The notes beneath the pieces were generated by a model that worked only from the letters and a program-made list of their open reading frames with translations, had not been told where the DNA came from and did not search any database. This document shows positions 3,861 to 59,427 of a stretch of DNA of 64,000 nucleotides, in pieces. The stretch is taken from assembly GCF_041222825.1 (NCBI RefSeq), contig NZ_CP139482.1:4035501-4099500 (forward strand). Reading direction: 5' to 3'. The position numbers and the translations under genes are program-made. Position 1 is the first letter of the stretch; each line of letters begins with the position of its first letter. This DNA is from Candidatus Thalassolituus haligoni. Its GTDB lineage: Bacteria > Pseudomonadota > Gammaproteobacteria > Pseudomonadales > Oceanobacteraceae.

Positions 3861-4095
3861 ATCGTATCCTGAAAAGGGAGCCAATAATAAACAGAACGGA
3901 TAACACAAAGGCAGGAACTGGTCAGTAGCAGACCGGGAAGCAGACACGCCAGCGGCGGGTCGCTGACTCAAAACCACCTTCCCGGGTGCCAGACAAGCAC
4001 GATAAGTGAGACAACTCACAACCAAATATGGCCTCAGTTTACCCGCACTTAGATTGATGGGTTATGATACACGCTTCACTAGTTGGGAACCACGT

Positions 4096-4869
4096 ATGCG
4101 AGTTATCACTTTACAGGTAGACGGACTGCAACAGGCGGTAGATAAAGGCCTGTATACATGGCTGACAATGGCAGACGCCGATGTCGTTGCCATTCAGAAT
4201 CTGCGCGCCAAGGAATATCAGCTGTCTGACGATGTCGTCTACCCGCGAGATTTTAACGCATACTTTTTCGACGCAGAAGCCGACGACTACTCCGGTGTTG
4301 CCATCCTCACCCGGGAGGTTCCCAAGGCCATCATGACCGGCCTGGCGTTTTCCCAGTGCGATATGCAAGGCCGCTACATTCAGGCCGACTTCCCTCATGT
4401 CAGTGTTGGCTCAATCCTGTTCCCTGCCGTTGACGCCTTTAACAACCTGGACGACAAGTTGGCCTTCCAGAAATCGTTTCTGGAACACCTGCAAAAAAAT
4501 CGCCGCAAGCGCCGTGAATTTATTATCTGCGGCAATTTTGAAGCCGCCCACAAAACGGTTGACCTGGCCGACTGGCAAGCCAACCAGAACTCACCAGGCT
4601 TTTTGCCGGAAGAACGCGCCTGGTTTGATCAGATCTTTGGCCCGGCAGGCTATGTCGATGCCTTCCGCGAAGCCAACTTTGGCGAAAACCAGTTCACCTG
4701 GTGGCCAGATGCCGAAAGCGCACGCCGCAACCAGAATGGCTGGCGCAAGGACTATCAGATTTGCAGCCCCGGCATTCGCCAATACGTTGTTGATGCCAAA
4801 ATAGAAAACAGCCTGCAATTTGGTGATCACTCCGCCGTCATGATTGAGTACGAATTCGACGACGAGTAA
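4096..4869 (+). CDS. crc: Catabolite repression control protein Crc (ExoIII-like fold)
   Basis: A 257-aa member of the endonuclease/exonuclease/phosphatase fold that matches Pseudomonas Crc rather than exonuclease III. Crc works with Hfq to repress translation of catabolic mRNAs when preferred carbon is present. Matches include RRKRREF, SPGFLPEERAW, GYVDAFRE and FTWWPD. Catalytic positions of ExoIII are replaced: the metal-binding Glu of the LQE motif is Asn here (AIQNLR), and the GDxN loop reads GNFE. The C-terminal GDHS still resembles the catalytic SDH. The start at ATG 4096 was chosen by homology; the frame is open from 4006. Divergence from pyrE and convergence with rph repeats the Pseudomonas order. 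Confidence 0.9.
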   Translation: MRVITLQVDGLQQAVDKGLYTWLTMADADVVAIQNLRAKEYQLSDDVVYPRDFNAYFFDAEADDYSGVAILTREVPKAIMTGLAFSQCDMQGRYIQADFPHVSVGSILFPAVDAFNNLDDKLAFQKSFLEHLQKNRRKRREFIICGNFEAAHKTVDLADWQANQNSPGFLPEERAWFDQIFGPAGYVDAFREANFGENQFTWWPDAESARRNQNGWRKDYQICSPGIRQYVVDAKIENSLQFGDHSAVMIEYEFDDE

Positions 4870-47830: not shown

Positions 47831-47904
47831 ACCTGTTCCGTGCATAAAACTGGAAGGTTTTATACAATGCCGCCCCGTTTTGAGCCAGAGAGACATTGCC
47901 GACC

Positions 47905-48612
47905 ATGACGCCAGAACGCCTGAGTTGTGTCATCAACACCCTCAACCGACGCCAGCCAGACCTGTCGGTGATTACCGATGAAGTCTACAAATCGCACAAC
48001 CTCGCTGCGATTGCCCGCTCCTGTGATGCCTTTGGCGTTCAGGATGTGCACTGCGTATGGCCGACCACCACTTACCGGCTCAACAGCGTCACCAGTGCAG
48101 CCGCTGCAGGCTCAGAGAGCTGGGTCACGGTCAATACGCATCCGGATATCGAAGCCGCCATCCGTAGCCACCAGCAGCGCGGCATCAAAGTCTGTGCAGC
48201 CCATCTGACAGACCGGGCTATCGACTTCCGTGCCTATGACTTTACCCAACCAACCGCGATACTGATGGGCACGGAGAAAGAAGGGGTCAGTGATGCGGCC
48301 TCCGAACTGGCTGACGAACACCTGATCATTCCCATGCTGGGTATGGTACATTCTTTTAATGTCTCCGTTGCAGCCGCCATCATTCTTTGTGAAGCCGCCC
48401 GCCAGCGCCAACTGGCCGGCATGTTTGAACAACGCCACCTGAACGATATACGATTCAGTACCCTGTTATTTGAATGGTGCCAACCATCGGCAGCCAGACT
48501 CTGCCAAAAGCACAACCTTCCCTATCCGGCACTACGGGAAGACGGTGAAATTGCTGATCCGCAAGCTTTTTCACAACAAGTGAACGCACAGAGCGCACAC
48601 ACCTCCCGGTAA
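47905..48612 (+). CDS. trmH: tRNA (guanosine(18)-2'-O)-methyltransferase TrmH
   Basis: A 235-aa SPOUT methyltransferase. It has HNLAAIARSCDAFGVQDVH with the catalytic Arg (motif 1), ILMGTEKEGVSD (motif 2) and IPMLGMVHSFNVSVAAAI (motif 3) forming the trefoil knot, plus the C-terminal TrmH extension. ATG 47905 was chosen because MTPERL is the family N-terminus. It methylates G18 in tRNA D-loops. Confidence 0.95.
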   Translation: MTPERLSCVINTLNRRQPDLSVITDEVYKSHNLAAIARSCDAFGVQDVHCVWPTTTYRLNSVTSAAAAGSESWVTVNTHPDIEAAIRSHQQRGIKVCAAHLTDRAIDFRAYDFTQPTAILMGTEKEGVSDAASELADEHLIIPMLGMVHSFNVSVAAAIILCEAARQRQLAGMFEQRHLNDIRFSTLLFEWCQPSAARLCQKHNLPYPALREDGEIADPQAFSQQVNAQSAHTSR

Positions 48613-48668: not shown

Positions 48669-48686
48669 TGTGCGAGATATCGCACA
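48669..48686. promoter_or_regulatory. GacA/UvrY-type upstream activating palindrome
   Basis: TGTGCGAGATATCGCACA has perfect 7-bp arms TGTGCGA/TCGCACA around GATA. It matches the known E. coli UvrY site of csrB (TGTGAGAGATCTCTTACA, from memory) at 14 of 18 positions. It is centred about 180 bp before the inferred start of the GGA-rich RNA, the spacing known for csrB. Confidence 0.65.
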
Positions 48687-48855
48687 AACGTGTGGGAAAT
48701 CCGTAATCTGGCCTGCAATACTCCCCTCATTCGTCCCAACCAAAAAATATAACCCTTTGTTTTTCATGGAATTTATTTTTCATTTCAATTTTATGGCAAG
48801 CAATTGGCAGCTTTGTGGAACTTCTGCTCACGGCCAACTTTGGTAAAGTGACAAT

Positions 48856-49301
48856 CACAGGGACAGGAAATCAACGGAAGATTGCCAGGATGGCACCCGC
48901 TTCAGGAAGAAGCGGAGCAGGATATCGCACAGGCAAGTGCAGCCAGGACGGCAAAGGAAATGGACATAGCACATGATGTGCCGGACAAACCAGGGATTGG
49001 CGATAAGGGATCAGGACGGCTCGGTTGAGCAACACAAGGGAATGTCAGGACACACCTCTGGAAGAGGTTCAGGGATATTCGTCATTGGATGATCAGCCAG
49101 GAAGGCAAGGCAAATGGATTGGATTGCCCACGGAAGACCGGCCAGGAGGCCTACCAGGAAGGTAAAAGGACAATGAGAGCAATGGATTTGCTCAGGGATG
49201 ACCAACACGATGGACTGTGACAAGGACGATGCCAGAGGAACCAGGACTGTTCCAGGGTGCTGTGGCGGCCTGTACAGGATGTACTAGTCGCCCAATTTTT
49301 T
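48856..49301 (+). ncRNA. csrB: CsrB-type small RNA (CsrA/RsmA sponge)
   Basis: No protein frame of value exists here, but GGA occurs 33 times in about 445 nt, mostly as AGGA, GGGA or TGGA, and many copies sit between short complementary arms (for example CTGTACA-GGA-TGTAC at 49271-49284). This density on one strand only is the hallmark of CsrB/RsmZ RNAs that titrate the translational repressor CsrA. The 5' end is inferred from a TAAAGT -10-like box at 48844-48849. The 3' end is a GC stem (GGCG/CGCC) with a TTTTTT tail at 49296-49301. A UvrY/GacA-like palindrome lies upstream. Confidence 0.85.
49264..49301 (+). terminator. Terminator of the CsrB-type RNA
   Basis: The hairpin pairs GGCG with CGCC at the base and GTACA with TGTAC around a GGA loop, followed by AATTTTTT (49294-49301). 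Confidence 0.75.
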
Positions 49302-49401: not shown

Positions 49402-49722
49402 TTACCCCTTGTGGTATCTCTCCGCCAGAATCCCCAGCACCAAAAAACTCCCAACAACAGAGGCCACATAGACAGGCGCTGACAGACCGATTAATACTCG
49501 GGCCAGCAAAGGTACCAACCAGACCGTTAACGTGCCGTAGCCAAAGGTACAGAGCGCGACAAAGATCAAGACCCGAAAGCCTACCCAGTACTGCCTCACC
49601 AGCTTCCGTACCGTTCGATTAATACTGTCTCCAAAGACCACCAGCAGAGTCGCAATAATCGCCAACGCTATTTCATCATTGTAGGGGCGTAACCACCCGG
49701 ACAAAGAAATCAACAATGCCAT
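49402..49722 (-). CDS. DUF3392 family membrane protein
   Basis: A 106-aa protein with three hydrophobic segments (about 17-35, 47-70, 75-98) and the DUF3392 pattern RPYNDEIALAIIATLLVVFG and YWVGFRVLIFVALCTFGYG. It is a small inner-membrane protein of unknown role found near the same place in related genomes. Confidence 0.8.
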   Translation of the reverse strand: MALLISLSGWLRPYNDEIALAIIATLLVVFGDSINRTVRKLVRQYWVGFRVLIFVALCTFGYGTLTVWLVPLLARVLIGLSAPVYVASVVGSFLVLGILAERYHKG

Positions 49723-49807
49723 TTACGACGGCTCCTTCTATCCAGCGCCAATAGTTTGGTCAAATATACTGCGGGTTTACCGTGAACAGTCAGAATAGCA
49801 GACATAA

Positions 49808-49832
49808 AAAAACCCGCGATATACGCGGGTTT
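49808..49832 (-). terminator. Terminator downstream of tRNA-Thr
   Basis: AAACCCGCG and CGCGGGTTT form a 9-bp stem around ATATA. On the minus strand a T7 run follows. It lies 8 nt beyond the tRNA 3' end and may also act on the opposite strand. Confidence 0.8.
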
Positions 49833-49839
49833 AAAGTAC

Positions 49840-49915
<76 letters not shown>

Positions 49916-58392: not shown

Positions 58393-58539
58393 GCCGCGAG
58401 TCTATCAGATTGCACCCGTTGCGGAAGATGCTGATCAACAAATCCCCTGTTTATCCGTACAGCAGGATATTTAACAGGACGATGAGAGAGAGGCACTCTA
58501 TAATCTGTGACCAAATTTCAATTATTCGGACTCATTATT

Positions 58540-59427
58540 GTGAGAAACAGCCCGATTCTGGCCGAAATATCTGCTGCCATACCCAACTTGCGCAAATCCG
58601 AGATCAAAGTGGCGGAATACGTGTTGCGGTCGCCACAGCAAGTGATGCACATGCGCATCGTCGACCTCGCCCAGGAAGCCCAGGTAAGTGAACCAACCAT
58701 CGTCCGGTTTTGCCGTGGCATCGGCTGCAACAGTTTTCAGGAATTCAAGGTTCGCGTCGCCCAGGAAATGGCCATTACCAACAACATTGGTCAATTTGCC
58801 ATCGCCACAGACGACAGCATCAGTAATATTTGCAGCAAGATTGCCGACACCACCATCCAGCGACTGCATCAAGTCAAATCGCAGCTGAAATCAGAACAGG
58901 TAGGGGTCGCTGCCAATGCCATCAGCATGGCCACCCGTGTCGAATTTTATGGCTATGGTGCCTCTGGGGCCGTCGCTATTGATGCACAACACAAGTTTTT
59001 TCGGCTGCAAGTTGCGACAGCGGCTTACAGTGACCCTCATATGCAAGCCATGTCCGCAGTGACTCTGGGGCCTGAAGACGTCGCTGTCGCCATCTCTCAA
59101 AGTGGCCGCACCAAGGATCTGCTCAATTCCATTGCCCTGGCCCAGCATCATGGTGCCAAAGTCGTTAGCCTGGCGCCCGCCAATACTGCGGTCAGCTTGC
59201 AAGCCGACTACCCGATTCATATCAATATTGAAGAAGACACCGAACAATTTACCCCGATGACCTCCCGTATTGCCCATCTGATGGTGATCGACATGCTGGC
59301 AGTCGCCGTCACACAGCGTCGAGGTCCCGAGTTTGCTCGCCATCTCATCAATATCAAACGCAGCATCAAATCATTGCGGCTGGAGCAGGGTAACGAACCC
59401 TTCAATCCGAAAAATATTATCGGTTAA
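58540..59427 (+). CDS. hexR: HexR-type RpiR family regulator
   Basis: A 295-aa protein. The N-terminal RpiR helix-turn-helix has LRKSEIKVAEYVLRSPQQV and EAQVSEPTIVRFCRGIGCNS. The C-terminal SIS sugar-phosphate domain has EFYGYGASGAVAIDAQHKFF and AISQSGRTKDLL. HexR controls glucose catabolism and senses 2-keto-3-deoxy-6-phosphogluconate. GTG 58540 was chosen because a TATAAT at 58498-58503 suggests transcription begins after GTG 58507. The targets (zwf, edd, eda) are outside the window. Confidence 0.87.
   Translation: MRNSPILAEISAAIPNLRKSEIKVAEYVLRSPQQVMHMRIVDLAQEAQVSEPTIVRFCRGIGCNSFQEFKVRVAQEMAITNNIGQFAIATDDSISNICSKIADTTIQRLHQVKSQLKSEQVGVAANAISMATRVEFYGYGASGAVAIDAQHKFFRLQVATAAYSDPHMQAMSAVTLGPEDVAVAISQSGRTKDLLNSIALAQHHGAKVVSLAPANTAVSLQADYPIHINIEEDTEQFTPMTSRIAHLMVIDMLAVAVTQRRGPEFARHLINIKRSIKSLRLEQGNEPFNPKNIIG

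Follow-up and report, generated by a model that had tools for sequence, protein, structure and literature searches.

The RNA Candidate Lies Between trmH and a DUF3392 Gene

The window analyzed here is a stretch of 64,000 nt (positions 4035501–4099500) from the single-contig genome (4.38 Mb) of Candidatus Thalassolituus haligoni. An earlier note on this DNA had placed a CsrB-type small RNA between trmH and a DUF3392 gene, and both neighbours were confirmed by profile matches. The following features are located in this region (positions are those of the window):

47896–48612, plus strand: trmH, upstream neighbour (TrmH NF008295, 266.8 bits, cut-off 227)
48669–48686, no strand assigned: 18-bp inverted repeat TGTGCGAGATATCGCACA, a candidate GacA/UvrY box; the pattern is matched in full nowhere else in the genome, and the box is kept in relatives
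48691–48699, plus strand: TGTGGGAAA, a possible additional half site, 4 bp downstream of the box
48750–48762, plus strand: IHF-like site TAACCCTTTGTTT, differing from YAANNNNTTGATW at one position
48844–48849, plus strand: TAAAGT, putative -10 element, located where relatives have TATCTT-like elements
48856–49301, plus strand: candidate CsrB/RsmZ-type RNA with 33 GGA motifs, conserved, start estimated to within a few nt
48960–49069, plus strand: sub-threshold match to the Rfam RsmY model (24.5 bits, gathering score 57)
49237–49253, plus strand: conserved, covarying hairpin with AGGA in the loop, preceding the terminator
49254–49301, plus strand: conserved, covarying 3′ block AGGGTGCTGTGGCGG and terminator stem-loop with an AGGAT loop and a T run
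49402–49722, minus strand: DUF3392 gene, convergent downstream neighbour (PF11872, 110.8 bits)

The starting point was the claim that 33 GGA motifs, many of them in AGGA or GGGA form, occur within about 445 nt on the plus strand, which was considered to be far above random expectation. A recount of positions 48855–49300 (446 nt) reproduced number, strand, and size, with 33 GGA on the plus strand and one on the minus strand. The subtypes AGGA, GGGA, and ANGGA occur 16, 6, and 15 times, respectively. When the stretch was shuffled 2000 times with its dinucleotide composition preserved, the count on the plus strand was 18.3 ± 2.7 with a maximum of 28, and 33 motifs were reached in none of the shuffles; for AGGA the shuffles yielded 5.5 ± 2.1 with a maximum of 13. 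The runner-up non-overlapping 445-nt stretches of the whole window contain 14 GGA on the plus strand and 13 on the minus strand. Further downstream, on the minus strand at 49804–49915, a tRNA gene is followed by a strong hairpin and a T run, where weak and probably spurious Rfam leader matches were obtained.

The Upstream Region Is Arranged Like That of E. coli csrB

The interval named in the earlier note begins exactly at the inverted repeat at 48669–48686, the start of which is approximately 187 nt away from the RNA start that we place near 48856. In comparison to TGTGAGATATATCTCACA, the box matches at 14 or more of the 18 positions in 31 of the 33 places read in the family, while weak boxes at about the usual distance were found in G007 (TGTAAGCATTTTCCTACA) and G023 (TGTAATAGATATCGTACA). 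Genome G004, which has two RNAs at the locus, carries the boxes TGTAAGACATGTCTTACA and TGTAAGACATCTCTTACA, whose form TGTAAG..CTTACA we take to be that of Pseudomonas GacA boxes. IHF-like sites were called with the IHF consensus YAANNNNTTGATW. In 26 of 29 loci scored (G007 was among those left out), the best match has no more than one mismatch and is located at a distance of 80–82 nt from the start of the box, and E. coli csrB has a perfect match at 89. The E. coli counterpart of the box is TGTGAGAGATCTCTTACA at -191 to -174. In the part of the source that was available, this csrB box is described as specifically bound by UvrY and centred at -183/-182, with an extra TGTAGGAGA located 5 bp downstream, with which we compared the possible half site at 48691–48699, and with a putative IHF site lying between this box and the promoter (PMC4682653).

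GGA Motifs Are Located in Predicted Hairpin Loops and the 3′ End Is Conserved

The earlier note had suggested that several of the motifs lie in hairpin loops. Folding and loop counting agreed with this, since GGA occurs in 10 of the 13 hairpin loops of the window RNA's minimum free energy structure, compared to 2.4 ± 0.9 in shuffles. In a control fold of E. coli CsrB, 9 of 14 loops contained GGA. Altogether, 15 of the 33 GGA are fully unpaired (0.45 vs 0.34 in shuffles), and the total folding energy is mildly low, with a z value of -1.62 and 6 of 100 shuffles being equally low. In all 30 RNAs folded with eight shuffles each, the GGA nucleotides are unpaired more often than the other nucleotides and more often than shuffled GGA, whereby the RNA lengths are approximate because the starts were placed at a fixed 184 nt from the box start (by hand in G007) and the sequences of G012 and G060 contain a little promoter. 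A weak case is G015, where one of five loops contains GGA and the fully unpaired share is 0.12 vs 0.19 in shuffles. Left out of the folding were G061, G023, G059 (the window's own species), and G063 (a shortened locus with an unreliable count).

A generic scan of the plus strand for promoters and terminators reported neither at the RNA. Nevertheless, the terminator that had been noted at the RNA end was recovered as a hairpin followed by six T (49264–49301), which is conserved and covaries in relatives. For the covariation analysis, an alignment of 21 sequences was used, from which L037 (3′ stretch identical to that of the window) and L015 (missed by the pattern) were left out. Both sides have changed in 13 of the 18 pairs of the two 3′ hairpins, whose covariation score of 0.344, compared to at most 0.110 with partners slid, was reached by none of 500 shuffles in which relatedness was kept. 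One of five covariation measures, the number of further pair types, was not above the shuffles (130 of 500). Directly before the terminator stem, AGGGTGCTGT (49254–49263) is nearly invariant throughout the family and lies mostly outside of predicted stems.

The Locus Is Conserved Within the Family

By BLASTN, a match was obtained in 17 of 55 genomes, the window's own genome included. A covariance model for the 3′-terminal 73 nt, built from 21 sequences (16 distinct), matched 33 of the 44 family genomes at 34 places and in all eight genera, with genus g3 being represented only by a weak match of 27.3 bits in G007. Among 390 genomes drawn from the order, 15 were matched by the model, all within this family, whereby distant relatives may have been lost in this search because its filters were stricter. 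Eleven family genomes gave no match. In two of them, G002 and G019, trmH is followed by a box and by a GGA-rich RNA sequence that is cut off at the contig end, and in the remaining nine, eight of which belong to genus g3, the trmH query was without a match at an E value of 1e-20.

The box and the neighbouring genes were read at 32 of the 34 places (the G023 box was added later and G061, at a contig edge, was left out). In 24 of these 32 loci DUF3392 lies downstream, and trmH lies upstream in 30; in G008 trmH was not found in the locus. Each of the 22 matched loci has a single conserved 3′ block, and the second copy of G004 belongs to another locus.

The Genome Encodes CsrA and GacA

The genome encodes one CsrA above the NCBIfam cut-off, as well as a GacA that is 56% identical to UvrY of E. 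coli, is located directly before uvrC, and scores above the cut-off of the UvrY/SirA/GacA model. Within the family, csrA was found in 41 of 44 genomes and as a single match in 37 of these 41. More than one CsrA match was obtained in four genomes (three each in G015, G013, and G062, and two in G019), whereby two of the three matches in G015 are neighbouring partial matches. No link between GGA number and csrA copy number was seen in the window's genus, because all seven genomes of this genus have one csrA.

A second Csr RNA was searched for in the genome by means of CAGGA clusters, boxes, and the RsmY model, and none was found, whereby an RNA of low motif density might escape such a search. Clusters of three CAGGA gave 29 matches genome-wide, of which three fall into the RNA described here, and the other 26 regions have at most 13 GGA per 400 nt, compared to 32 at this RNA. 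The looser box pattern TGTRMGN6CKYACA led to one further site at genome position 3986476, which has no GGA-rich neighbour, the surroundings containing no more than 7 GGA per 300 nt. The 20 weak genome-wide matches of the RsmY model say little, because 13 of 14 control genomes matched as well.

The earlier note had also connected the RNA with hexR and crc. The gene at 58507–59427 encodes a protein with RpiR-type HTH and SIS domains, and the gene at 4006–4869, which adjoins pyrE, encodes an Exo_endo_phos protein; both are consistent with the names given, but neither name is proven to that level, and the link of the RNA to these two genes is circumstantial.

The RNA Is Close to Known Csr and Rsm RNAs

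No Rfam family reached its gathering score at the RNA, either in the window or in 16 family loci, and the E. coli csrB control scored 380.4. In the window, a second sub-threshold RsmY match of 16.1 bits was obtained, and the CsrB model gave no match at an E value of 1. In 5 of the 16 family loci the CsrB model matched below its gathering score of 71, with the best match at L091 (O. kriegii; 55.7 bits, E value 2.3e-12), followed by L086 (35.1 bits), L076 (33.3 bits), L077 (30.8 bits), and L096 (18.5 bits). The CsrC model (gathering score 61) matched L075 with 16.4 bits. The Rfam comparison that had been proposed for the CsrB and RsmY models therefore agrees with such an affiliation as far as sub-threshold matches are concerned, but not at the level of the gathering score. 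Judged by its sequence, the RNA resembles and probably works like CsrB/RsmZ, being located near that clan and below the score for Rfam membership.

With E. coli CsrB (RF00018) it shares many GGA in hairpin loops, a predicted terminator, an 18-bp box that starts near -187 to -191, and an IHF-like site between box and start. It differs in its genomic place, which is next to trmH instead of syd/yqcC, in the absence of a match at gathering score, and in its size. As had been stated before, it is longer and richer in motifs, with about 446 nt and 33 GGA, and this comparison holds because CsrB of strain MG1655 has 369 nt and 22 GGA. With RsmY, RsmZ, and RsmX of Pseudomonas, the RNA would share the logic of a GacA-driven sponge that we propose here, and the short family members are of Rsm size. 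Rsm RNAs are given 6–10 GGA in the accessible part of PMC7911923, whereas the window RNA is approximately four times longer and stays below the gathering score of 57 of RsmY (RF00195). CsrR1 and CsrR2 of Alcanivorax (PMC9788540) and Pf1–3 of Pseudoalteromonas (PMC11882849) are likewise described, in the available portions of these reports, as GGA-rich intergenic or leader RNAs with proposed or shown CsrA binding. The same portions assign 6 unpaired GGA to CsrR2 and 25, 21, and 9 GGA to Pf1, Pf2, and Pf3, respectively, next to 22 for E. coli CsrB and 14 for CsrC. CsrR1 originates in the 5′ UTR of hfq, CsrR2 is found together with ferredoxin, and trmH is unmentioned in that portion of PMC9788540. 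Our comparison of sizes refers to the RNAs named here, and no record is claimed.

In the open-licence literature nothing was found on csrA in Oceanobacter, and none of the matches listed there combined Thalassolituus with CsrA, sRNA, GGA, or RsmA. The available parts of two texts touching on CsrB and Oceanospirillales (PMC8639471, PMC9788540) do not show the trmH locus. In that of InvenireSRNA (PMC5568370), Marinobacter, Hahella, and Thalasso- are unmatched and Oceano- occurs only as Oceanobacillus. The RNA is a candidate CsrA partner for a marine family (Oceanobacter, Thalassolituus, Oleibacter) in which Rfam stays below the cut-off at this locus.

A GacA-Activated Sponge RNA Is the Most Probable Explanation

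We consider it very probable that positions 48856–49301 encode a free-standing sponge RNA of the CsrB/RsmZ kind that is activated by GacA. The CsrB/RsmZ-type identity proposed in the earlier note is supported by the GGA density, the GacA/UvrY-type box at the E. coli distance, the IHF-like site, the conserved terminator, and the GGA hairpins, as well as by the conservation in the family, the sub-threshold Rfam matches, and the presence of CsrA and GacA. According to this explanation, phosphorylated GacA would bind to the inverted repeat at 48669–48686 and, helped by IHF bending, would drive transcription that begins near 48856 and ends at the terminator (49301). The RNA would present GGA in many short hairpin loops and bind several CsrA dimers, and the sequestration of CsrA would free CsrA-controlled mRNAs, by which carbon flow might be affected. 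In the Oceanobacter clade, such an RNA has reached 33–44 GGA, and at least a part of this growth would go back to tandem duplication within the RNA.

Since 30 of 32 loci have trmH immediately before the RNA and in the same orientation, the GGA-rich stretch could also be a long trmH 3′ UTR to which CsrA binds either in cis or once the UTR has been processed. We regard this as very improbable and rejected it, because about 243 nt with the RNA's own box, IHF-like site, and -10-like element lie between trmH and the RNA, because G004 has a separate box for each of two tandem RNAs, and because the G008 locus is without a detected trmH. It would also be conceivable that two or more separate short RsmY-like RNAs are arranged in tandem, as the two sub-threshold RsmY matches and an internal repeat at a distance of approximately 155 nt might indicate. 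Such an arrangement is hardly to be expected with a single box and a single conserved terminator, a simple scan found no internal terminator, and the 3′ block is present once per locus in the 22 matched loci with the second G004 copy lying elsewhere; thus, this possibility, too, was rejected as very improbable.

CsrA binding is deduced from the motif alone and the stretch is G-rich on one strand, so that the GGA density might be a compositional effect or serve another partner, e.g., a different RNA-binding protein. However, the GGA count exceeds that of dinucleotide shuffles, the motifs, like those of E. coli CsrB, are placed in hairpin loops, the box is of GacA type, and the genome has both csrA and gacA. 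For these reasons a compositional effect was rejected, and we assign this explanation an extremely small probability.

The Number of GGA Motifs Varies Widely at One Locus

At this one syntenic locus, the sponge RNA candidates range from 7 GGA in about 146 nt up to 44 GGA in about 552 nt. The short members (G010, G015, G027, and G007) have 7–8 GGA in 144–147 nt, intermediate family members have 10–26 GGA, and those of the window's genus have 33–44 GGA in 438–591 nt. Among the loci counted, 33–44 GGA are confined to the Oceanobacter clade. In a UvrC tree, i.e., a single-protein tree with a midpoint root in which 28 of 35 rows carry a GGA count, the five genomes of the Oceanobacter group whose loci are complete form one clade (support 100/100).

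Internal repeats were detected in several of the RNAs. In the window RNA the repeat spans 72 nt at 71%, in G001 it spans 116 nt at 76% with three copies of a unit of approximately 53 nt, in G005 it spans about 250 nt at 71%, and in G002, as far as the RNA is visible, it spans 150 nt at 93%. No internal repeat was found at an E value of 0.01 in G003, in either RNA of G004, in G009, or in G014; therefore, the repeats of these RNAs are too old to be seen, or other routes were taken. Part of the growth of the RNA is accounted for by internal repeats.

What is new here is the size series of 7–44 GGA at one syntenic locus, while the kind of molecule is already known. We see about an even chance that this is one orthologous locus in which the number of CsrA sites changed approximately six-fold (from 7 to 44 GGA), from RsmZ scale to beyond CsrB, tandem duplication within the RNA being a main route, and this in lineages that mostly have one csrA. 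If true, the capacity would be set by the sites per molecule and not by added sRNA genes as in Vibrio and Pseudomonas, for which the available parts of PMC6262261 and PMC7911923 describe extra capacity via gene copies. Moreover, the Rsm and Csr types of RNA would then be bridged by one locus. With the natural series of 7–44 motifs, the reasons for the large size differences between sponge RNAs become directly testable.

In G004 (L100, contig 29:148500–153000), two complete tandem RNAs with 39 GGA each, every one of them preceded by its own box, are located between trmH and DUF3392. In G002 (L132, contig 63), the contig stops inside of the 150-nt tandem repeat, and 27 GGA are contained in the 342 nt that are visible, so that the whole RNA would have at least this number.
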